The notes beneath the pieces are model-generated. The model was not told the DNA's origin. It saw nothing but the letters and a program-made list of their open reading frames with translations, and made no database searches. Shown here piece after piece: positions 30,431 to 56,809 of a stretch of 64,000 nt of DNA (its first letter is position 1; every line of letters begins with the position of its first letter). Source of the DNA: Allonocardiopsis opalescens (GTDB lineage Bacteria > Actinomycetota > Actinomycetes > Streptosporangiales > Streptosporangiaceae); the NCBI RefSeq assembly GCF_003002095.1, contig NZ_PVZC01000007.1, positions 310,001-374,000 of the forward strand. Direction: 5' to 3'. The position numbers and the translations under genes are program-made.

Positions 30431-30487
30431 TTGACAGACAGGGCGGGCCAACGCATTGTTTCGGGAGAGCGCTCTCCCGAAACAATG
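30431..30487 (+). promoter_or_regulatory. Promoter with 34-bp perfect palindrome before GH-A/discoidin gene
   Basis: CATTGTTTCGGGAGAGC (30454-30470) is the exact reverse complement of the next 17 bases (30471-30487). The core is GAGAGCGCTCTC. TTGACA (30431-30436), 17 bp and CATTGT (30454-30459) form a promoter whose -10 is the left end of the palindrome, so repressor binding would block polymerase directly. Confidence 0.82.
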
Positions 30488-47848: not shown

Positions 47849-47878
47849 GCCCCGGGGCGCCCCGGCGCGGCGGCTCAG
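47845..47878. terminator. Bidirectional hairpin overlapping both stop codons
   Basis: Outer arms CTGAGCC (47845-47851) and GGCTCAG (47872-47878) enclose the palindrome CCGGGGCGCCCCGG (47852-47865). It includes the stops of the aldo/keto reductase and the IclR gene and would end both convergent transcripts. Confidence 0.55.
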
Positions 47879-48657
47879 GGCCGCTCGGCCGCGCCGGGGT
47901 GCCAGCTGCTCAGCTCGGCGGAGACGTCGGCGGCGCCGCGGACCACCTCGGCCAGGATCCGGGCGCCGCGCTCCTCGTCGATGCGGTACTGCGGCCCCGC
48001 GACGGTGACGGCGGCGACCACCTTGCTGGCGACCTTGATCGGCGCGGCCACCGCCCACACCTCCTCGTCGACCTCCGAGGCGCTGTGCGACCAGCCCTGC
48101 TCGGCGATGAGCGGCAGCTCGGCCAGCACCGACTCCCGCTCGCCCTCGGGCGGCCGGTGCTCCAGCCGGTCGAAGTAGCGGGCCGCCCACTCCGGGCCCA
48201 TCCCCGCCAGCAGCGCCTTGGGCCCCGCGCCCCGGTGCAGGCTCATGATCTGCCCGGGGCGGAAGGACAGCCGGATGGAGCGCTCGGTCTGGCAGATCTC
48301 GGCGCAGGTGGCGAAGTCGCCGACGCGCCGGATGACCAGCGCCGCCTCGCCGGTGACCGAGGCCAGCCGCTCCACCAGCGGCCGCAGCAGGTGCGACATC
48401 CGCATGGTCTGCTCGGCGCTCTCGGCGAGGGTCAGCACGCGCGGCGCCAGCACGTAGGTGCCGCCGCCGTTCTCCTGCACCAGTTCCATCTCGCGCAGCA
48501 GCGAGACGAAGCGGTAGGCCGAGGGGGTGGAGATGCCCACGTCGCGTGCGATCTCCTCCACGGTGAGCTGCGGTGACTGCTCCGAGAACAGCAGCAGCAC
48601 CTTCAGCGCCCGCCTCGCGCTGTCGACGCCCGGCGTCCGCCCGCGCGCTTGCGCCAC
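47875..48657 (-). CDS. IclR-family regulator, last gene of the B6-type catabolic operon
   Basis: A 260-residue IclR protein. The N-terminal winged helix is in QLTVEEIARDVGISTPSAYR and EMELVQENGGGTYVLAPRVL. The C-terminal effector domain has LVIRRVGDFATCAEICQTER, the loop LHRGAGPKALLAG, SEVDEEVWAVAAPIKVASKV and VTVAGPQYRIDEE. It starts at a GTG 42 bp after the PEBP gene, on the same strand as nine catabolic/transport genes. It is the only regulator there, so it probably controls the operon through the 29-bp dyad at 56402-56430. The inducer would be a pyridine intermediate. Confidence 0.88.
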   Translation of the reverse strand: MAQARGRTPGVDSARRALKVLLLFSEQSPQLTVEEIARDVGISTPSAYRFVSLLREMELVQENGGGTYVLAPRVLTLAESAEQTMRMSHLLRPLVERLASVTGEAALVIRRVGDFATCAEICQTERSIRLSFRPGQIMSLHRGAGPKALLAGMGPEWAARYFDRLEHRPPEGERESVLAELPLIAEQGWSHSASEVDEEVWAVAAPIKVASKVVAAVTVAGPQYRIDEERGARILAEVVRGAADVSAELSSWHPGAAERP

Positions 48658-48699: not shown

Positions 48700-49152
48700 T
48701 CAGGCGGAGTAGGTCCCGACGACCCGGTTCTGCTCGATGATGCGGTCGGCGTACCGAGCGAGGAACTCCTCGCGGGTGGGCTCGCCCGCGACGGCCGCGC
48801 TCAGCGCGTAGACCCAGAAATAGTAGTGGTGGATTCCGTGGCCCGGCGGCGGTTGCGGGCCGGTGTATCCGGGAGCGCCGATGCCGTTGGGCCCCTCCCG
48901 CACGGTGCCGCTCCCGGTGTCGAGGCGGCCGTCGGCGGGGGCGATGCCGTAGACCGTCCAGTGCGTGAAGCCCTGCGGCAGCGGGGCGTCGGGGTCGTGC
49001 GCGATGACGGCCAGCTCCACCGCGCCCTCGGGCACCCCGGTGATCTCCAGCTCCGGCGGCGTGCCCGCGGCGCCGGAATGGGCGTCCGGAATCCGCTCGC
49101 CGAATGCGAAATCCGGTGACGAGACCGCCAGGTCCTTGATGTTCAGTCCCAT
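48700..49152 (-). CDS. YbhB/YbcL-type PEBP (Raf kinase inhibitor-like) protein
   Basis: A 150-residue phosphatidylethanolamine-binding-protein fold. Signature elements are SPDFAFGERIPDAHSGAAGT, the anion-pocket strand ELAVIAHDPDAPLPQGFTHW (DPDAP) and YTGPQPPPGHGIHHYYFWVY (GPxPPxGxHxY). AGGAGG lies a few bases before the ATG. Bacterial members have no settled function; some are thought to bind small anionic ligands. Its place between the AAMS hydrolase and the IclR gene suggests a role linked to the pathway, perhaps binding an intermediate, which is speculation. Confidence 0.88.
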   Translation of the reverse strand: MGLNIKDLAVSSPDFAFGERIPDAHSGAAGTPPELEITGVPEGAVELAVIAHDPDAPLPQGFTHWTVYGIAPADGRLDTGSGTVREGPNGIGAPGYTGPQPPPGHGIHHYYFWVYALSAAVAGEPTREEFLARYADRIIEQNRVVGTYSA

Positions 49153-49225
49153 ATTTCTCCTCCTTGCTCGATTCGGCTCCATGAATGCGCCCGGTCGGCG
49201 GCTCCCATGCGCCGGGAGCCCTTTC

Positions 49226-50059
49226 TCAGGGCGCGGCCCCGACCATTTCCCTGATCAGTCCGGCCACCCGCTCCGGCGCCTCCTCGGGGACGTAGTGGTC
49301 GACGCCGGGCAGCTCCACGGCGCGCAGGTCGGGGCGGAGCCGCCTGGTCGCGGCGAAGGCGTCGGGCGACACCAGCCTGCTGAGCGCGCCGCGCACCAGG
49401 GTGACCGGCACCGCGACGGCGCGGGTCTCCTCGGCGAAGTCGCGGCGCAGCCCCTCGACGGTGCGCACCATGGCGGCGGGGTCGGCCAGCGCCCGGTAGC
49501 CGCCGGCCTCGCGCGTGTAGCCGTAGGCGACGCGGCGGCGCACCGCGTCCTCGGGCATCAGCGGGTAGCGGCCGCGGATGTAGCCGGCCACCTCCTCGGC
49601 GGAGGCGAACACCCGGTCGCCGCCGCGCACCCGCGCCTCCAGCTCGTCGAGCACCCGCCGCTCGATGAACGGGGTGTAGTCCAGCGCGACGACGCCGCGT
49701 ACGGCGGCGGGCTCGCGCGCCGCCGCGACCACGCCGTTGCGCGCGCCGAGGGAGTGGCCGCAGACGACGGCCGGGCCGCAGTCCAGCTCGGCGATCAGCC
49801 CGAGCAGGTCGGCGGTGTACTCGTCGGCGCCGTAGCCGCTCGCGGGTCTCCCGCTGCGGCCGTGGCCGCGCTGGTCGACGGCGACGGTGCGGACGGCGCC
49901 GCCCAGGTGCGCCACCACCGCGTCCCACACGCCGAGGCTGCCGGTGGTGCCGTGCAGCAGCACCACGGCGGGGCCGCTCCCCCGGTCGCGTACGCACAGC
50001 TCGGTCCCGCCGACGCGCACGGTGCGCAGGTCGGCCAGGGTTTCGGGATGCTCGGGCAT
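49226..50059 (-). CDS. Alpha/beta hydrolase similar to (E)-2-(acetamidomethylene)succinate hydrolase (vitamin B6 pathway)
   Basis: A 277-residue hydrolase. The nucleophile is Ser103 in CGHSLGARNGV, a probable acid Asp127 is in VALDYTPF (right after strand beta-6), and the His is 255 in GVDHYVPEE. GHSLGARN, the DYTPFIE stretch, DELEARV, GRYPLMPEDA and RLRPDLR...PGVDHYV match the M. loti enzyme Mlr6787 as I remember it. That enzyme splits AAMS into succinate semialdehyde, acetate, ammonia and CO2. The gene begins five bases after the stop of the dehydrogenase gene. It would carry out the last step of the encoded pathway. Identification relies on recalled sequence, not a search. Confidence 0.82.
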   Translation of the reverse strand: MPEHPETLADLRTVRVGGTELCVRDRGSGPAVVLLHGTTGSLGVWDAVVAHLGGAVRTVAVDQRGHGRSGRPASGYGADEYTADLLGLIAELDCGPAVVCGHSLGARNGVVAAAREPAAVRGVVALDYTPFIERRVLDELEARVRGGDRVFASAEEVAGYIRGRYPLMPEDAVRRRVAYGYTREAGGYRALADPAAMVRTVEGLRRDFAEETRAVAVPVTLVRGALSRLVSPDAFAATRRLRPDLRAVELPGVDHYVPEEAPERVAGLIREMVGAAP

Positions 50060-50064
50060 CGCCG

Positions 50065-50997
50065 TCAGACCGGGGTGGTGTCGGAGAGCGCCCGCCGCAC
50101 GGTGATCAGGCCGGCGATGATGTCGGCGCGCTTGGCGGCGACATCGCCCTCGCCGTAGGCGTACATGCCGCCGCCGGTCTTCATACCGAGTTTCCGCTGC
50201 CCGGTCATCTCGGTGACCAGCGGGGAGACGCCCGCCTCGGTGGACAGCTCGCGGTTGAGGTACCCGGCGACCGACTCGTAGATGTCGAGCCCGGCCATGT
50301 CCAGCAGCCGCATCGGGCCGATGACGGCGAGCTTGTAGCCGATGCCCCACTTGACGCAGGTGTCCAGGTCCTGCCGGGAGACCACGCCCTGCTCGACCAG
50401 CGACAGGCACTCGCGCAGGATTGCGTAGAGGATCCGGTTCTCCACGAAGCCGGGGACCTCCTTCTCCACCACCGCCTCGTAGCCGATCGCCCGCACGGTC
50501 TCGACCAGCGCGTCGCGCACGCCCTCGGCGGTGCGCTCGCCCGGGATGACCTCGATCATCGGGATGACGTGCGGCGGGTTGGACCAGTGCATGCCGATCA
50601 GCCGCTCGGGGTGCGCCATGTCCGCCGCCAGCTCGGAGACGGGGATGCCCGAGGTGTTGGTGCCGATGACGGCGTCGTCGCGCACCGCGGCCTCGATCTC
50701 GGCCAGCACCGCGCGCTTGAGGTCGAGCCTCTCGGGCACCGCCTCGATGACCAGGTCGGCGCCGTCGAGCGCGGCGGCGAGGTCGGCTTCGCAGCTGACG
50801 GAGCCGCCGGGGGTGGTCGGGACGCCGAGCCGGTCCAGGACGGACTCGGCGATCGCCAGCGCGCCCGCGGCGCGCTCCAGCACCTCGGCGCTGACGTCGT
50901 TGAGCCGGACGGTGGAGCCGTACCGGGCCATCAGGGCGGCGATGCCGGGGCCCATGGTGCCGGAGCCGATGACGGCGGTGGTGGTGGGGACGCTCAT
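50065..50997 (-). CDS. 3-hydroxyacyl-CoA-dehydrogenase-fold enzyme similar to FHMPC 5-dehydrogenase (vitamin B6 pathway)
   Basis: A 310-residue NAD-dependent dehydrogenase. The Rossmann motif is AVIGSGTMGPGIA, the catalytic-type His137 is in LIGMHWSNPPHVIPMIEV, and EKEVPGFVENRILYAILREC leads the C-terminal dimer domain. The segment DLDTCVKWGIGYKLAVIGPM, then LLDMAGLDIYESV, closely matches the M. loti 5-formyl-3-hydroxy-2-methylpyridine-4-carboxylate dehydrogenase (Mlr6793) as I recall it; a fatty-acid enzyme would have HFFNP at the His. It would oxidise FHMPC to the 4,5-dicarboxylate. ATG with GAAGG upstream. The neighbours encode the next three reactions. Confidence 0.82.
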   Translation of the reverse strand: MSVPTTTAVIGSGTMGPGIAALMARYGSTVRLNDVSAEVLERAAGALAIAESVLDRLGVPTTPGGSVSCEADLAAALDGADLVIEAVPERLDLKRAVLAEIEAAVRDDAVIGTNTSGIPVSELAADMAHPERLIGMHWSNPPHVIPMIEVIPGERTAEGVRDALVETVRAIGYEAVVEKEVPGFVENRILYAILRECLSLVEQGVVSRQDLDTCVKWGIGYKLAVIGPMRLLDMAGLDIYESVAGYLNRELSTEAGVSPLVTEMTGQRKLGMKTGGGMYAYGEGDVAAKRADIIAGLITVRRALSDTTPV

Positions 50998-51048: not shown

Positions 51049-51807
51049 CTAGCGGGGCTGCGGCCCGCCCTGGCGCGCCTCCTGGGCGTCGAGCTTGCGG
51101 TTGAAGTACATCCAGAAATTGTTCTTGGCCCGGTCGGGGTAGATCACGTCGTACTTCTCGACGCTCTCCTCCGCGCCGGGCGGGTGGTGCGCCAGGCCGG
51201 AGGAGGCGAGGGCCAGCTGGGCGCGGGCCGCCTTCTCCAGGAAGATCCCGGCCAGCGTCGCCTCCCGGACGTCGCGGCCCACGAAGGAGACCCCGTGGTT
51301 GGCCATCAGCACCGCCTCGGCCGGGCCGAGGGTGCGCGCCAGCGCCTTGCCCAGCTGCGGGGTGGTGATGATGTGGCTGGTCTCGGCGAAGCGCGGCACG
51401 CCGTGGTGGGCGAACCAGACGGCGTGGTTGATGTAGGGCCCCAGTTCGGCGCCGGTGGCCCCGAAGACGGTGGAGTAGAAGGGGTGGGAGTGGCCGACGA
51501 CCGCGACCTCGGGCCGGGCCAGCATGATCTCGGCGTGCAGCGGCCATTCGAGGTGGCGCAGCCCCTGGCCCTCCAGCACCCGGCCGTCGAAGTCGATCAG
51601 GATGAAGTCGCGGCCGGTCACCTCCTCCAGGCCGAGGTTGCCGCGCTTGAGCCACAGCCCGCGGCCGTGGGGGTCGCGGTAGGAGAGGTGGCCCATGGAC
51701 ATGTCGCCGTGCCCCTCCATCTCCAGGATGCGGTGGGCGCGGGCCACCTGTTCGAGCACGGTGGCGATGGAGTCGTCCTGGCTGTACAGCGCGTCGCTGT
51801 GCGGCAT
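51049..51807 (-). CDS. Class II aldolase/adducin-fold enzyme, probable HMPDC decarboxylase (vitamin B6 pathway)
   Basis: A 252-residue metalloenzyme fold. Metal-site candidates are the His pair in VVGHSHPFYSTVFG (His106, His108) and a later His in LMANHGVSFVGRDV, with Glu in HLEWPLHAEIMLARP. The M. loti 3-hydroxy-2-methylpyridine-4,5-dicarboxylate decarboxylase (Mlr6791) belongs to this family and is encoded next to the same partners. Family alone would also allow a sugar-phosphate aldolase; the gene context makes decarboxylation to 3-hydroxy-2-methylpyridine-5-carboxylate the better call. The ATG at 51807 has GAAAGG upstream. Confidence 0.75.
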   Translation of the reverse strand: MPHSDALYSQDDSIATVLEQVARAHRILEMEGHGDMSMGHLSYRDPHGRGLWLKRGNLGLEEVTGRDFILIDFDGRVLEGQGLRHLEWPLHAEIMLARPEVAVVGHSHPFYSTVFGATGAELGPYINHAVWFAHHGVPRFAETSHIITTPQLGKALARTLGPAEAVLMANHGVSFVGRDVREATLAGIFLEKAARAQLALASSGLAHHPPGAEESVEKYDVIYPDRAKNNFWMYFNRKLDAQEARQGGPQPR

Positions 51808-51850: not shown

Positions 51851-52450
51851 TCATCCGCGTGCGGCGGCGCGGGCCTCGGCCAGGCTCAGGCCGCCGACGC
51901 GCTGGTGCACCCGGCCCCCGCTGGCCACGGCGACGCAGATCAGCAGCTCGTCAGGGCGCGGCGCGTCGGGGACCGCGAGGGTGACGGCGTCGTAGTGCGA
52001 GCGGACGTACAGCTCGTCCTTGTAGGCCAGCGGGATGTCGATGGCGGTGCCCGCCGACGCCGTCTTGGTGGCCGAGGAGATCCAGGCCGCGCCGCCGCCC
52101 ACGGCCGCGCGCAGCGCGTCGCCGAAGACGGTGGTGACGCAGGCGACGACGTGCTCCTGCTCGCCGGCGGTGCCGGCGATGCCGCCCTTGCCGTAGCTGT
52201 GCACCTCGCGCCGGCCCAGCAGCGCGGCCGCGCGGCGGCCCAACTCGGTGCCGAGCGCGGCGCTGGGCGCGGTGAGCGCGGACAGGTCCTCGGTGTAGCC
52301 CCCGGCGAAGGGGTTGGCGATCACCACGCCGCAGGCGGCCTTGACCAGCGGCTCGCCGGGCACCGGGCCGCCCTCGTGCGCGATCTCCTCGACGAAGCCC
52401 ACCCAGCGGCGGACCCGGTAGCCGTCCTCGACGGCGCTTGCGGCACTCAC
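51851..52450 (-). CDS. DUF1185 ('amino acid synthesis') family protein
   Basis: A 199-residue protein with VRRWVGFVEEIAHEGGPVPG, VIANPFAGGYTEDLSALTAP, YGKGGIAGTAGEQEHVVACV, SSATKTASAGTAIDIPLAYK and DAVTLAVPDAPRPDELLICV. These match the DUF1185 fold, which has no proven reaction despite its name. GTG start with AGGAG upstream. It lies between the flavin monooxygenase and the decarboxylase genes, so it may handle an unstable intermediate or substrate preparation. The many conserved His/Lys/Asp residues argue for an enzyme. Confidence 0.82.
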   Translation of the reverse strand: MSAASAVEDGYRVRRWVGFVEEIAHEGGPVPGEPLVKAACGVVIANPFAGGYTEDLSALTAPSAALGTELGRRAAALLGRREVHSYGKGGIAGTAGEQEHVVACVTTVFGDALRAAVGGGAAWISSATKTASAGTAIDIPLAYKDELYVRSHYDAVTLAVPDAPRPDELLICVAVASGGRVHQRVGGLSLAEARAAARG

Positions 52451-52464
52451 CCTCGTGTCTCCTC

Positions 52465-53610
52465 TCAGCTGCGCCCGGCGGCGTGCCGGTGCGGGTCCGT
52501 CGGGTCGTACACGGCGGTCTCCAGGTTGACCGCGTCGAACTGGTTGCCCTCCGACATGCGCCGGGTGGCGGCGTACTCGGCCGAGCGGTGCTGGCAGCGG
52601 TCGGTGATCGGCCGCTCCAGGCGCTCCCACTCCGGCAGCGCGTCGGGGACCGCGCCGGGCTCGGCGCGGGTGGCGGCGTCGGCGAGCGTGTAGGCGTTGG
52701 CCATCGCGGTGCCGGCGCCCTGGGCCAGCGCGGGGCACATGGCGTGCGCGGCGTCGCCGACCAGGGCGACGCGCCCGCGCGTCCAGCTGCGCAGCACGGT
52801 GGTCTGGTAGCCGTAGTAGCGGGGGTCCTCGGCGACCGCGGCGGCCTCCAGCACGGGGGTCAGCTCGGGGAAGGCGGAGGTCCACAGGTCCAGGTCGATG
52901 GGGGTGCGGCTGCCCTGCTCGTCGGCCCGGGGGGCGCCCAGCGCGATGTAGAGCTCGCGGTCGTTGCACGGCACGTACAGCACGCGCAGATAGCGCGGTT
53001 CGAGGTTCCAGAAGTCGATGACGTTGTCCCACTCGCCGGGGCCGAGTTCGGCGCGGCGGCGCGGCACCAGGAAGCGGATGATGCCGTCGCGGGAGCGGGA
53101 CCGCTCCTGCTCGAAGCCGATGGAGTCGCGCACCGCCGATCGGACGCCGTCAGCGCCCACGACCAGGTCGGCGCGGAGCGTCTCACCGGAGGCGAGCGTG
53201 ACGGCGCCCTCCGGGTCGGCGGCGACCACCTCCGAGCCGGTCCTGATCTCCACGCCCGCGCGCCGCGCCGCCGCCAGCAGGCAGCGGTGCAGGTGCGGGC
53301 GGGTCATCGTCCGCCACGGGAGCCCGCCGAAGTCCTCGTGGGAGACGCTGGCGCCGTGCAGGCGCGTCTCGTAGTACGGCGGGGTCATCGAGTCCGCCAG
53401 CACGTCGTCATAGGCGCCGATGGACCGCAGTACCTTGATGCTGTTGTGGAACAGCACGATGCCCGCGCCCTGCTCGCGCAGCTCGGCGGCCTTCTCGTGC
53501 ACGCGTACCGTCCAGCCGCGCCGCGCCAGCGCCGTGGCGGCGGTCAGCCCGGCGAAGCCCGCTCCGGAGATCTCGGCGCGGCGGGCCGTCGTGCGCTGTG
53601 GGGATGCCAT
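52465..53610 (-). CDS. FAD monooxygenase closely similar to 2-methyl-3-hydroxypyridine-5-carboxylate oxygenase (MHPCO)
   Basis: A 381-residue class A flavoprotein. FAD motifs are ISGAGFAGLTAATALARRGW, LVVGADGVRSAVRDSIGF and RVALVGDAAHAMCPALAQGA. Beyond these, GEWDNVIDFWN, VPCNDRELYIALGAPRAD, PPYYETRLHGASVSHEDF and the C-terminal RPITDRCQHRSAEYAATRRM match M. loti MHPCO (Mlr6788) much better than generic salicylate hydroxylases. MHPCO hydroxylates and ring-opens the pyridine to (E)-2-(acetamidomethylene)succinate using NADH and O2. ATG with GGAGA upstream. Strongest single marker of the vitamin B6 pathway here. Confidence 0.86.
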   Translation of the reverse strand: MASPQRTTARRAEISGAGFAGLTAATALARRGWTVRVHEKAAELREQGAGIVLFHNSIKVLRSIGAYDDVLADSMTPPYYETRLHGASVSHEDFGGLPWRTMTRPHLHRCLLAAARRAGVEIRTGSEVVAADPEGAVTLASGETLRADLVVGADGVRSAVRDSIGFEQERSRSRDGIIRFLVPRRRAELGPGEWDNVIDFWNLEPRYLRVLYVPCNDRELYIALGAPRADEQGSRTPIDLDLWTSAFPELTPVLEAAAVAEDPRYYGYQTTVLRSWTRGRVALVGDAAHAMCPALAQGAGTAMANAYTLADAATRAEPGAVPDALPEWERLERPITDRCQHRSAEYAATRRMSEGNQFDAVNLETAVYDPTDPHRHAAGRS

Positions 53611-53655: not shown

Positions 53656-54696
53656 CTAGCCGTTCTCGGCGTGGTGGGTCTCGGTGAAGGAGGGGTCGTA
53701 GACGTCGGCCACCTCGACGGGGCCGTCCAGTACGCCCTGCTCGGCGAGGGTGTCGACGGTGGCGGTCCACCGCTCCTCGTCCATCGCGCCCAGGCCGGCG
53801 GCCTCGGTGGTCTCGCTGGTGAAGGTGTGGTCGATGTCGGCCTGGAGCTGGCGCAGGAACAGGTCGGCGTTGTCGGCCTGCTCGGGGGCGGATTCGGCCA
53901 GGATCCGCGCCGTCTCCTCGGGGTTGTCGACCACGTAGGCGAAGGCGCGCAGGTAGGCGTCGGTGAAGCGCTGCACCAGCTCGGGGTCCTCGGCGATCAT
54001 CTGGTCGCTGGTGACGAGCCCGGAGCCGTAGGCGTCGTAGCCGTGGTCGGAGCCGAGCAGGATGCTCAGCGAGCCCTCGCCGCCGGCGGCGTCCTCCAGC
54101 TGCGGCACCTCGGCGTCGATGTAGCAGATCACCGCGTCGACCTGGCCCTCGATCAGGTAGTTCTCGTACGGCGGGGTGACGGTGACCTCCTCGATGCCCG
54201 CCCGGTCCACCCCGTTGGCGGCCAGCAGCGCCTCGTAGAAGATGTAGGTGGAGCCGGCCGGGTGCACGCCGACCGTGTGCCCGACCAGGTCCCCGGGCGC
54301 CTGGAGGCTGAGGTTGTCGCCCAGCGTGCACAGCCCGAGCGGCGAGACCTGGTTGACGGCGGCCAGCGCCCGCACCGGCACCTGCTGGGAGCGGGCGGTG
54401 ACCAGCGAGGGCAGGTCGGCGAAGCCGAAGTCGGCCCGGCCGGTGCCCACGATCCGCAGCGCGTCGGGGGAGCCGCTGCCGAGGGTGATGTCCTCGATCT
54501 CGATGCCGGCCTCGGCGAAGTAGCCCAGCTCCTCGGCGACGTGGAAGATGCCGTGGTTGCCGCGCAGCTGGTAGTCGAGCTGGACGGTGACGGAGTCGGT
54601 TCCGTCCTGTCCGCCCCCGCCGCAGGCGGCGAGCAGGCAGAGGGCGGACAGGGCGGAGACGGCGGACAGGACGCGGGGTCTGCGGGGCTCGGGCAT
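53656..54696 (-). CDS. NitT/TauT (NMT1/THI5-type) ABC transporter binding lipoprotein
   Basis: A 346-residue lipoprotein. Lipobox LCLLAAC is at about residues 19-25. The mature N-lobe reads VTVQLDYQLRGNHGIFHVAE and ELGYFAEAGIEIEDITLGSG, the THI5/SsuA-like opening, followed by VGTGRADFGFADLPSLVTAR. Family members bind pyrimidines, sulfonates, riboflavin and other aromatics. As first-line uptake for the operon it probably binds a pyridine such as 4-pyridoxate or a related acid. The ATG at 54696 has GGAG six bases upstream; an in-frame TTG at 54708 is less likely. Confidence 0.88.
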   Translation of the reverse strand: MPEPRRPRVLSAVSALSALCLLAACGGGGQDGTDSVTVQLDYQLRGNHGIFHVAEELGYFAEAGIEIEDITLGSGSPDALRIVGTGRADFGFADLPSLVTARSQQVPVRALAAVNQVSPLGLCTLGDNLSLQAPGDLVGHTVGVHPAGSTYIFYEALLAANGVDRAGIEEVTVTPPYENYLIEGQVDAVICYIDAEVPQLEDAAGGEGSLSILLGSDHGYDAYGSGLVTSDQMIAEDPELVQRFTDAYLRAFAYVVDNPEETARILAESAPEQADNADLFLRQLQADIDHTFTSETTEAAGLGAMDEERWTATVDTLAEQGVLDGPVEVADVYDPSFTETHHAENG

Positions 54697-54730: not shown

Positions 54731-55570
54731 CTACCGCACGTCGGCCCGGATGTGGGGGAACCTGCGGGCCAGCGCGATCTCCACCAGGGACATGCCGTAG
54801 TAGAGGGCCAGGCCGAGCAGCGAGACGAGGATGAGGGCGGAGAACATCAGCGGGGTGTCGAGCTGGGTGGAGGCGAACTGGATGAGGTAGCCCAGCCCGT
54901 CGGAGGCGCCCGCGAACTCCGCGACGACCGCTCCGATGACGGCCAGGGTGATGGCGATGCGCAGCCCGGCGAACAGGTAGGGCAGCGAGGTCGGCACCTG
55001 GACCCGCAGCAGGATCTGGTTGCGGGTCGCGCCGACCGAGCGCATCAGCAGCAGCAGGTCGGAGTCGATGCTCTTCAGGCCGACCAGCATGTTCAGGGTG
55101 ATCGGGAAGAACGCGATCACGACGACCAGCAGCAGCTTGGGCGTGAGCCCGTAGCCGAACCACAGGATGAAGATCGGGGCCAGGGCGACCTTGGGGACGA
55201 CCTGGAAGAGCACCACCAGCGGGTAGAGCGCGCGGTCCAGCCAGTGGAAGCGGGCGATGAGCACCGCGAGCAGCACGCCGACCGCGATGCTGATCGCGAA
55301 GCCGTAGACGATCTCCTGGGTGGTCACCCAGGCGGCCGCCAGCAGCAGCTCCCGCGAGGCCCAGGTCTCGGCGGCGATGGCGCTCGGCGTGGCCAGCACG
55401 AACTGGGAGACGCCGAAGGCGACGGCGGCCAGCTCCCACAGCACCAGCACGGCCAGCAGGACCAGCGCGCTCGGCCACACGGCCGACAGCCAGGCGCGCG
55501 GACCCGGGCGGTCGGGGCGCTCGGGGGCGGCGGGGGCGGGGGTACGGGCGGTTCCGGTCGCGGTCGCCAT
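54731..55570 (-). CDS. NitT/TauT-type ABC transporter permease
   Basis: A 279-residue permease with six hydrophobic helices. The EAA loop is MRSVGATRNQILLRVQVPTS, and FQVVPKVALAPIFILWFGYG is typical of SsuC/TauC permeases. The ATG at 55570 is preceded by an in-frame GTG at 55576 that overlaps the ATPase stop (GTGA); either may be used. Imports the ligand of the adjacent binding protein. Confidence 0.9.
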   Translation of the reverse strand: MATATGTARTPAPAAPERPDRPGPRAWLSAVWPSALVLLAVLVLWELAAVAFGVSQFVLATPSAIAAETWASRELLLAAAWVTTQEIVYGFAISIAVGVLLAVLIARFHWLDRALYPLVVLFQVVPKVALAPIFILWFGYGLTPKLLLVVVIAFFPITLNMLVGLKSIDSDLLLLMRSVGATRNQILLRVQVPTSLPYLFAGLRIAITLAVIGAVVAEFAGASDGLGYLIQFASTQLDTPLMFSALILVSLLGLALYYGMSLVEIALARRFPHIRADVR

Positions 55571-55572
55571 GG

Positions 55573-56355
55573 TCACACCGCCGCCTTCGGTTCGAGCAGG
55601 GAGCGCAGCCGGCCGGAGTAGGAGGCGAAGAGGGGGTCGGCGAAGACCTCGCGGGTCCGCGGCCGGGCCAGCTCGATGTCCAGCGTCTCCACGACGCGGC
55701 CGGGATCCGCGCCCATGACGTGGACGGTGTCGGACAGGAAGATCGCCTCGGAGATGGAGTGGGTGACGAAGACGATCGTCTTCCCGGTCGCCGCCCAGAT
55801 CTCGGCGAGCTTCTCGTTCATCTCGTCGCGGGTGATGGCGTCGAGCGCGCCGAAGGGCTCGTCCATCAGCAGGATCGCCGGGTCCATCGCCAGCGCCCGG
55901 GCGATCGAGACGCGCTGCGCCATACCGCCCGACAGCTGGTGCGGGAGCTTGCCGCGGGCGTCGGCCAGGCCGACCAGGGCGAGGGCGCGCTCCGCGGCCT
56001 GGGCCGTCTCGGTGCGGCCGCGCGCCCCGGTGGCGATCTGCCGGAGCAGGCCCGCGTTCTCCAGGGCGGTCTTCCACGGCAGCAGGGCCGGGCGCTGCGG
56101 CACCAGCCCGATCTGGCGGTCCCCGACGGCGTCGCGGACCGGCCGGCCGCCGATCAGGACCCGGCCTGACGTGGGCTCCAGGATGCCGCCGAGGATCTTC
56201 AGCAGGGTGCTCTTGCCGCACCCCGACGGGCCGAGCAGGGTGACGAATCCGCCGGGCCGGATGGTGAGGTCGAGGTCGTCGAGGACGGTCTGGGCCGCTG
56301 ACCCGCTGCCGAAGCGCATCCGCACGCCCTCGGCGGAGATCTGTCGCGATTGCAT
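55573..56355 (-). CDS. NitT/TauT-type ABC transporter ATP-binding protein, first gene of the operon
   Basis: A 260-residue ATPase. Walker A is LLGPSGCGKSTLLKILGG, the Q-loop is IGLVPQRPALLPWKT, the signature is HQLSGGMAQRVSIARAL, Walker B is ILLMDEPFGALDAITRDE and the switch His is in FVTHSISEAIFL, all as in SsuB/TauB. The ATG at 56355 has GAGAGGA upstream. The promoter and a 29-bp dyad lie 47-117 bp upstream. All ten genes down to the IclR gene run in this direction with small gaps. Confidence 0.92.
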   Translation of the reverse strand: MQSRQISAEGVRMRFGSGSAAQTVLDDLDLTIRPGGFVTLLGPSGCGKSTLLKILGGILEPTSGRVLIGGRPVRDAVGDRQIGLVPQRPALLPWKTALENAGLLRQIATGARGRTETAQAAERALALVGLADARGKLPHQLSGGMAQRVSIARALAMDPAILLMDEPFGALDAITRDEMNEKLAEIWAATGKTIVFVTHSISEAIFLSDTVHVMGADPGRVVETLDIELARPRTREVFADPLFASYSGRLRSLLEPKAAV

Positions 56356-56401
56356 GCGGTCGGTCCTCTCGGTGCTGGAGGGAGGCGCACACCAATAACC
56401 G

Positions 56402-56472
56402 AGATCATTATTAACATCTAATAATGATCTATCAGATGCTGTAACGCTAAGATCCAGTTCTGAGGGTGTCAA
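56402..56472 (-). promoter_or_regulatory. Operon promoter with 29-bp AT-rich dyad operator
   Basis: TTGACA (56472-56467), 17 bp and TAGCGT (56449-56444) form a strong minus-strand promoter. Just downstream, AGATCATTATTA (56402-56413) and TAATAATGATCT (56419-56430) are perfect 12-base arms around ACATC. It is the most AT-rich block I see in the window and is ideally placed to repress; the IclR protein of the operon is the likely binder. Confidence 0.8.
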
Positions 56473-56732
56473 GGGTTCTTCTGCGGAAAAGCGGCTGGTC
56501 ACACGAATGTCATCGGCCGGAAACGGGAAAAGCGCAGCGTGCGCCCGGGAAGATCACCGTGCGTATTCACGCCGGCGGCCGCGCCGCCGCGCCCCGTCCA
56601 CCGGCTTCCCGGGACCGACCCGGTCGGGCACGGCGCCGCCCTGGCCGGACGGGCCGGCACCCTCTCCTCCCTGTTCTCTTCGGTACGAGCAGTGCCGAAT
56701 TCGCCATGCCCGCTATCCAGCCTCAAGGAGCA

Positions 56733-56755
56733 TTAGGGTACGCTCAGTACCGTAA
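56733..56755 (+). promoter_or_regulatory. GGTAC-N5-GTACC operator candidate before the TIM-barrel gene
   Basis: GGTAC (56737-56741) and GTACC (56747-56751) form a perfect dyad, extended by TTA (56733-56735) and TAA (56753-56755). It lies about 55 bp upstream of the GTG at 56810. The cognate regulator is not in the neighbourhood. The rest of 56473-56732 shows no gene or clear signal. Confidence 0.5.
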
Positions 56756-56809
56756 CTGGGGCGGACGGAATCCGTGCCGCCCCGTCCCGACAGCGGAGAG
56801 GCGGCGGCC

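Follow-up and report, generated by a model that had tools for sequence, protein, structure and literature searches.

What is the AT-rich dyad in front of a vitamin B6-type degradation operon of Allonocardiopsis opalescens for, and which regulator would read it? The operon lies in a 64,000-nucleotide stretch of contig NZ_PVZC01000007.1 (the window) and comprises ten minus-strand genes, from an ABC transporter ATPase gene through to a gene for an IclR-family regulator, with the site preceding the first gene (Table 1). The label 'B6-type', given to the operon by a sequence-only reading, agrees with the domain matches and with the Mesorhizobium relatives of the monooxygenase. The FAD monooxygenase is what we take to be the MHPCO-like enzyme of pyridine ring cleavage, and the alpha/beta hydrolase is a candidate acetamidomethylene-succinate hydrolase. 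The top model for the dehydrogenase is NF042925 (FHMPC 5-dehydrogenase), with a score of 406 bits that stays below the cut-off of 500. The B6 loci of Mesorhizobium, where degradation follows pathway I, likewise hold MHPCO (~60% identity), an FHMPC dehydrogenase (~50%) and the PF06684 and PEBP proteins together, often with a related ABC transporter.

The dyad is exactly as had been claimed, with perfect 12-base arms (12/12 paired) around a 5-bp centre. Its setting had been described as DNA otherwise over 70% GC, which is right for the window (73.7%) but not for the intergenic region (62%) or for positions 56390-56460 (35%). In total, 15 distinct perfect repeats (arms of at least 12 nt, loop of 3-8 nt) occur in the window, where 20 first-order Markov simulations averaged 0.25, so a perfect repeat of this length is by itself unremarkable here. 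The dyad is the only one of the 15 with a GC content below 40%, and a comparable repeat arose in 2 of 3000 intergenic regions of 418 bp and in none of 5000 cores of 100 bp, both simulated from the surroundings of the dyad itself. At up to three mismatches it occurs once in the window (none in 100 shuffles) and once in the 6.97-Mb genome. Elsewhere in the window, a 34-bp perfect palindrome at 30454-30487, CATTGTTTCGGGAGAGC/GCTCTCCCGAAACAATG, was seen by eye to lie beside the frames of a LacI-type regulator and a secreted glycoside-hydrolase-like protein; it looks like a LacI-family operator, presumably of the CebR-like type.

Comparison with orthologous operons revealed that the conserved unit is not the 12-bp dyad but a site of three 6-bp boxes in alternating orientation, TRATAR-N4-TTATYA-N5-TRATAA, which occupies 56434-56408 of the minus strand here. 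Boxes B and C form the inner half of the dyad, and box A lies mostly outside it. The comparison covered 14 operons, namely that of the window and those of L002-L008, L085 and L087-L091, with L086 set aside because it duplicates L005; the 4.5-kb contig of L002 covers the first five genes only, and the other 13 operons have all ten genes in the same order. Judged from the named members, the set spans the orders Streptosporangiales, Kitasatosporales and Micrococcales, although the Streptomyces members contribute six sites that are nearly identical to one another, which reduces the independent lineages to about eight. With at most two mismatches, the three boxes are found in all 14 operons, 3-15 nt downstream of a TTGACN-N16..18-TANNNT promoter, and the 6-4-6-5-6 geometry with alternating direction is common to all 14 as well. 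Conservation of the dyad in orthologous operons is limited to its inner half, boxes B and C; of the outer six pairs, 6/6 are matched in A. opalescens versus 1-3/6 in the other 13 orthologues. The perfect 12-base arms are therefore a local embellishment, for which chance or local selection may account.

The TTGACA-N17-TAGCGT promoter that had been read on the minus strand at 56472-56444 is indeed present, and its TTGAC and TA...T are conserved as listed in Table 1. In an alignment of nine operons, taken from the 14 as representatives, all 23 invariant columns fall within the -35 and -10 elements, the boxes, the AGG of the ribosome-binding site and the ATG. TAGCGT matches TATAAT in three of six positions, and the promoter is absent from the list of the promoter scanner. 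The distance from promoter to dyad, given earlier as seven or so bases, had to be corrected, as the dyad begins 13 nt after the -10 element. A second sigma-70-like match at 56435-56407 lies inside the boxes and is probably a by-product of them. No terminator-like or attenuator site was found in 56200-56800.

Table 1. Coordinates of the promoter region and of the genes of the operon (positions in the window)
Feature	Position	Strand	Remark
-35 element, TTGACA	56467..56472	-	TTGAC invariant in 9 aligned orthologues
-10 element, TAGCGT	56444..56449	-	TA...T invariant in 9 aligned orthologues
Box A, TGATAG, first box, forward	56429..56434	-	4 of 6 bases outside the dyad coordinates
Box B, TTATTA, reverse orientation	56419..56424	-	inner arm of the dyad
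Box C, TAATAA, forward	56408..56413	-	inner arm of the dyad
Dyad, AGATCATTATTA-ACATC-TAATAATGATCT	56402..56430		12-nt arms 56402-56413 and 56419-56430, 100% complementary, 5-nt centre
Outer arm extension of the dyad	56402..56407		outer six pairs perfect here alone among 14 orthologues
Other outer arm extension	56425..56430		shares bases with the A-B spacer and with the end of box A
Ribosome-binding site, AGAGG	56365..56369	-	AGG invariant in 9 aligned orthologues
ABC transporter ATPase, first gene	55573..56355	-	ATG at 56355-56353
ABC transporter permease	54731..55570	-	Pfam/NCBIfam
NMT1/THI5-like substrate-binding protein	53656..54693	-	Pfam
FAD monooxygenase, MHPCO-like	52465..53610	-	~60% identical to Mesorhizobium homologues
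'Amino acid synthesis' PF06684 protein	51851..52450	-	Pfam
Class II aldolase family, decarboxylase-like	51049..51804	-	Pfam/NCBIfam
Dehydrogenase	50065..50997	-	best match FHMPC 5-dehydrogenase
Alpha/beta hydrolase	49226..50050	-	Pfam/NCBIfam
YbhB-type PEBP protein	48700..49182	-	Pfam/NCBIfam
IclR-family regulator, last of ten genes	47875..48657	-	recognition helix ISTPSAYR

The specificity of the site was examined at the level of whole loci and whole genomes. Scanned with a position weight matrix (PWM) trained without the clade under test, the promoter site ranked first in all 14 whole loci with 27.5-38.4 bits, and the runner-up reached at most 6.1 bits. L009 and L012 were excluded from the 14-site PWM because their sites diverged, L019 and the rhizobial loci were scanned by PWM and not counted as orthologous operons, and the MHPCO homologues of G017, G105 and G145 (48-50% identity) and of G531 (61%) stood outside the comparison. 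The relaxed pattern TRAKAR-N4-TTMTYA-N5-TRAKAR, with at most one mismatch, gave 14 matches in the 14 whole genomes, one in each and all at this operon, and its reversed control gave none. A tighter three-box pattern with up to two mismatches found the operon site alone in the genome of A. opalescens, where its control pattern also gave one match. The B-C part alone (TTAYYA-N5-TRATAA) recovered the operon site in four of ten genomes, matched elsewhere in another three and had no match in the remaining three; it is less specific, so the third box carries information. Further copies of the dyad had been suggested as a route to the missing upstream pathway genes, a route that was closed in these genomes by the single site in each and, in the genome of A. 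opalescens, by the lack of any site near such genes. Three Streptomyces genomes (G698, G699 and G700) share a conserved TTACCA-N5-TAATAA repeat away from the operon, which is probably the site of another regulator.

The IclR protein scores 40.2 bits with PF09339, the N-terminal helix-turn-helix domain (cut-off 22), and 72.5 bits with PF01614, the C-terminal effector domain (cut-off 24), and thus belongs to the IclR family. The PcaR/PcaU/PobR subfamily model TIGR02431 is among its nearest named models, with 87 bits against a cut-off of 284.75, and the protein is not assigned there. It is encoded by the tenth gene in 13/13 operons whose locus reaches that far, and the recognition helix ISxPS(A/T)YR is shared by all 14 aligned IclRs (A in 13). 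Profile searches of 24 genomes with an MHPCO relative, a set without those of L010, L013 and L076, found a strong IclR orthologue (250-383 bits) in 22/22 actinobacterial genomes, four of which had supplied rows to the profile and 18 had not; the best IclR matches in the two rhizobial genomes reached at most 122 bits. Mesorhizobium differs from the window in having another gene order, no close IclR orthologue in the two rhizobial genomes searched and three-box scores far below those of the 14 operons. The IclR gene lies ~14-19 kb downstream of MHPCO on the same contig in five mapped loci belonging to the 18 genomes (L016, L018, L023, L039 and L045). In the genome of L018, the match to the IclR orthologue (G1393:C11:275726-276466) is interrupted by a TAG, which may be an end effect or may mark a pseudogene. 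No flanking open reading frame of at least 150 aa was common across genera in seven loci, where sharing was limited to two Streptomyces, which leaves IclR as the only regulator observed to accompany the site. The proposal of an operator-like site at the operon promoter, with the IclR protein encoded last as its best candidate binder, is therefore supported by co-conservation, by the three-box geometry and by the lack of any other conserved neighbour of at least 150 aa.

The geometry can be compared with IclR-family sites in the literature, where three-box sites have been predicted by footprinting in 32 orthologous groups (Suvorova and Gelfand 2021, PMC8222616). The pair consensuses described there are TGRAACAN2TGTTYCA for group 2 (gap 4) and GKTYCRYW3RYGRAMC for group 1 (gap 5; GTTYCR-YW3R-YGRAAC), and the 6-4-6-5-6 alternating boxes found here have exactly the spacing that results when both consensuses share a box (PMC8222616); the boxes had been defined from the sequence before this comparison. 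The centre of the dyad at about -61 from the ATG is within the zone of -20 to -80 where most published IclR sites lie (PMC8222616). As for the letters, TRATAR agrees with the published YGRAAC at about four of six positions, and other box types exist in the family according to the same source. The layout is best documented for PcaU, PobR and HmgR in a family that includes activators, the sites of PcaU and PobR in Acinetobacter consist of a palindrome and an external direct half-site, and the third box is required for binding by PcaU (cited in PMC8222616). The string 'pyridox' has no occurrence in the main text of PMC8222616, which thus mentions no pyridoxine genes. A published description of an IclR regulator of B6 degradation, or of the physiological role of this one, was not found, which is not proof of absence.

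From these sequence comparisons, the three-box site is likely to be the operator of an autoregulatory IclR-family repressor of the B6 ring-cleavage operon. An IclR dimer pair (or tetramer) would read TRATAR and TRATAA in the forward direction and TTATYA between them in the reverse, the boxes being located just downstream of the -10 element. With a transcription start 7 nt beyond that element, expected near 56437, they would cover about +3 to +30. Bound IclR would block promoter clearance, until a pyridine-carboxylate intermediate of B6 breakdown, or its imported precursor, releases the protein and switches on the importer, the ring-cleavage genes and iclR itself. The boxes with their register and conservation, the one site per genome and the joint inheritance with this IclR are observed; binding, repression, start site and ligand are what this model predicts. 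A protein bound on the boxes would hinder promoter clearance, so a repressor is favoured, one that would also shut off the last gene of the unit, its own.

The IclR protein could also bind the same site as an activator or dual regulator, recruiting polymerase when ligand-bound, as the activators PcaU and PobR do. The best-documented cases of the three-box layout, the presence of activators in the family and the rank of PcaR/PcaU/PobR among the nearest named models speak for such a role, although the score of that model is below its cut-off. The likeness to PcaU and PobR has its bounds, as their sites are made of GTTCG-type boxes whereas the site here has TRATAR boxes, and the IclR protein reaches 87 bits of the 284.75 asked of that subfamily. 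Activation is rendered unlikely by the position of the site downstream of the -10 element in 14/14 operons (gap of 3-15 nt), where a bound protein normally blocks, and by a -35 element (TTGAC) near consensus. That an unlinked transcription factor binds the site while IclR regulates something else might explain why the box sequence departs from the published IclR consensuses, and the binding of IclR is a prediction from sequence; such a factor is nonetheless quite improbable in view of the one site per genome at this operon, the IclR orthologue in each of the 22 actinobacterial genomes searched that contain an MHPCO relative, as opposed to the two rhizobial ones, the exactly IclR-like spacing of the alternating boxes and the lack of another conserved neighbour of at least 150 aa in seven loci.

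The transcript might instead use the dyad as a hairpin at its 5' end, in mRNA stability or attenuation, as the RNA of the window can fold into a stem of 12 bp (39-nt site, -12.1 kcal/mol), the B/C stem also folds in L085 and L008, and an A/B stem folds in L005, L006, L087 and L088. Pairing between B and C is reduced to 4/6 in seven of the 14 sites (the six of Streptomyces and L087), and the six Streptomyces sites are without a stable stem (-0.6 to -2.5), yet keep boxes A and C as 6/6 direct repeats; there is no terminator-like site either. With the B/C stem disrupted in these seven sites, the hairpin was rejected as the conserved function, and the RNA explanation is very improbable. Scarcely credible is a functionless AT-rich palindrome that arose by chance: conservation is lacking in the outer six pairs and perfect repeats of such length are not rare in the window, but the boxes are kept across three orders, rank first with the clade left out and occur once per genome. 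An IclR repressor acting at the three boxes is thus the preferred reading.

Related sites were sought in 25 further loci chosen by the analyst (actinobacterial, mostly Microbacteriaceae, with MHPCO or the transporter as the first matched gene). In 15 of them the best match of the 14-site PWM fell within 160 bp before the first gene, a number reached by none of 300 column-permuted PWMs (mean 3.8, maximum 12), and among 81 box spacings the 4/5 spacing was the best with 15 loci, the next giving 14. Box B is degenerate in the further loci, and ten have their best match elsewhere; in six of these ten (L016, L017, L025, L051, L079 and L081), the DNA before MHPCO resembles, by eye, the end of another gene. 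The wider form of the site is approximately YGAKAA-N4-nnnTCA-N5-TRAKAA; a consensus of this type, fitted on the same loci, matches 13/25 promoters and ten other places in 0.47 Mb. Three of these other places were mapped (L021, L023/L092 and L045/L095), and all three adjoin the start of a 4-pyridoxolactonase-like gene. With at most one mismatch, the wide pattern in five fetched cluster regions gave a second site in L092 and L095 and none in L093, L094 and L096. The suggestion that copies of the site point to upstream-pathway genes therefore works in these related clusters.

The L093 cluster encodes a 4-pyridoxolactonase (427.9 bits) and a pyridoxal 4-dehydrogenase (382.7 bits; NCBI cut-offs 325 each), neither of which was found in window-type loci, and that of L095 contains a pyridoxamine-pyruvate transaminase-like gene with 418.5 bits, below the cut-off of 600. 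Like the window, these fuller clusters of the Microbacteriaceae type (L093, L095 and others) have an orthologous IclR and related three-box sites before MHPCO. The related sites at lactonase genes, together with the B6 enzymes in the L093 and L095 clusters, thus link the regulator, along with its sites, to vitamin B6 by evidence from outside the window. L015, L021 and L010 carry lactonase and pyridoxal dehydrogenase genes directly before MHPCO, from which a site separates them, an arrangement intermediate between the two cluster types. Four alternating boxes, TTATCA-N5-CGTTAA-N4-TGATCA-N5-TGAGAA, occur at L079:18070-18107, the pattern to be expected of IclR sites in tandem at a distance of 21 bp, and a similar arrangement is found in L017, L081 and L023 near 18 kb, the neighbouring gene in L023 being lactonase-like.

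For the upper-pathway genes described as missing, whole genomes of the window type were searched for 4-pyridoxolactonase and the loci for further enzymes. At E<=1e-20, 4-pyridoxolactonase had no match in the genome of A. opalescens (G000, 98.1% complete), and no orthologue was found in the 14 genomes, with nothing in 12 and weak matches (35-37% identity) in the other two; within the window and the 13 orthologous loci, queries with lactonase, SDR, GMC and PPAT remained without a match at E<=1e-15. Since no lactonase orthologue was found in the window's genome and its 13 relatives, the operon looks like a lower pathway equipped with an importer. The upper steps may be catalysed by unrelated enzymes; otherwise the operon would act on a B6 product that is already oxidised. 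More tentatively, and with somewhat more doubt than confidence, the IclR orthologue and the three-box operator may be an ancestral switch of B6 catabolism throughout Actinomycetota, which followed the genes as their order and promoters changed. The lineage of the window would then have kept a lower-pathway-only operon with an importer, living on an oxidised product (4-pyridoxic acid or a pyridine dicarboxylate) and not on B6 itself, and the regulator would sense that product.

If the repressor model is true, actinobacterial B6 catabolism would gain a candidate regulator, an operator at footprint level and a regulon of one target, ready to be tried in promoter fusions or as a biosensor. The case would also show how a long and conspicuous dyad can distract from the unit that is actually recognised. 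The predicted three-box mode of IclR proteins, with two possible dimer arrangements per site, would likewise gain a clean example with a new box sequence.
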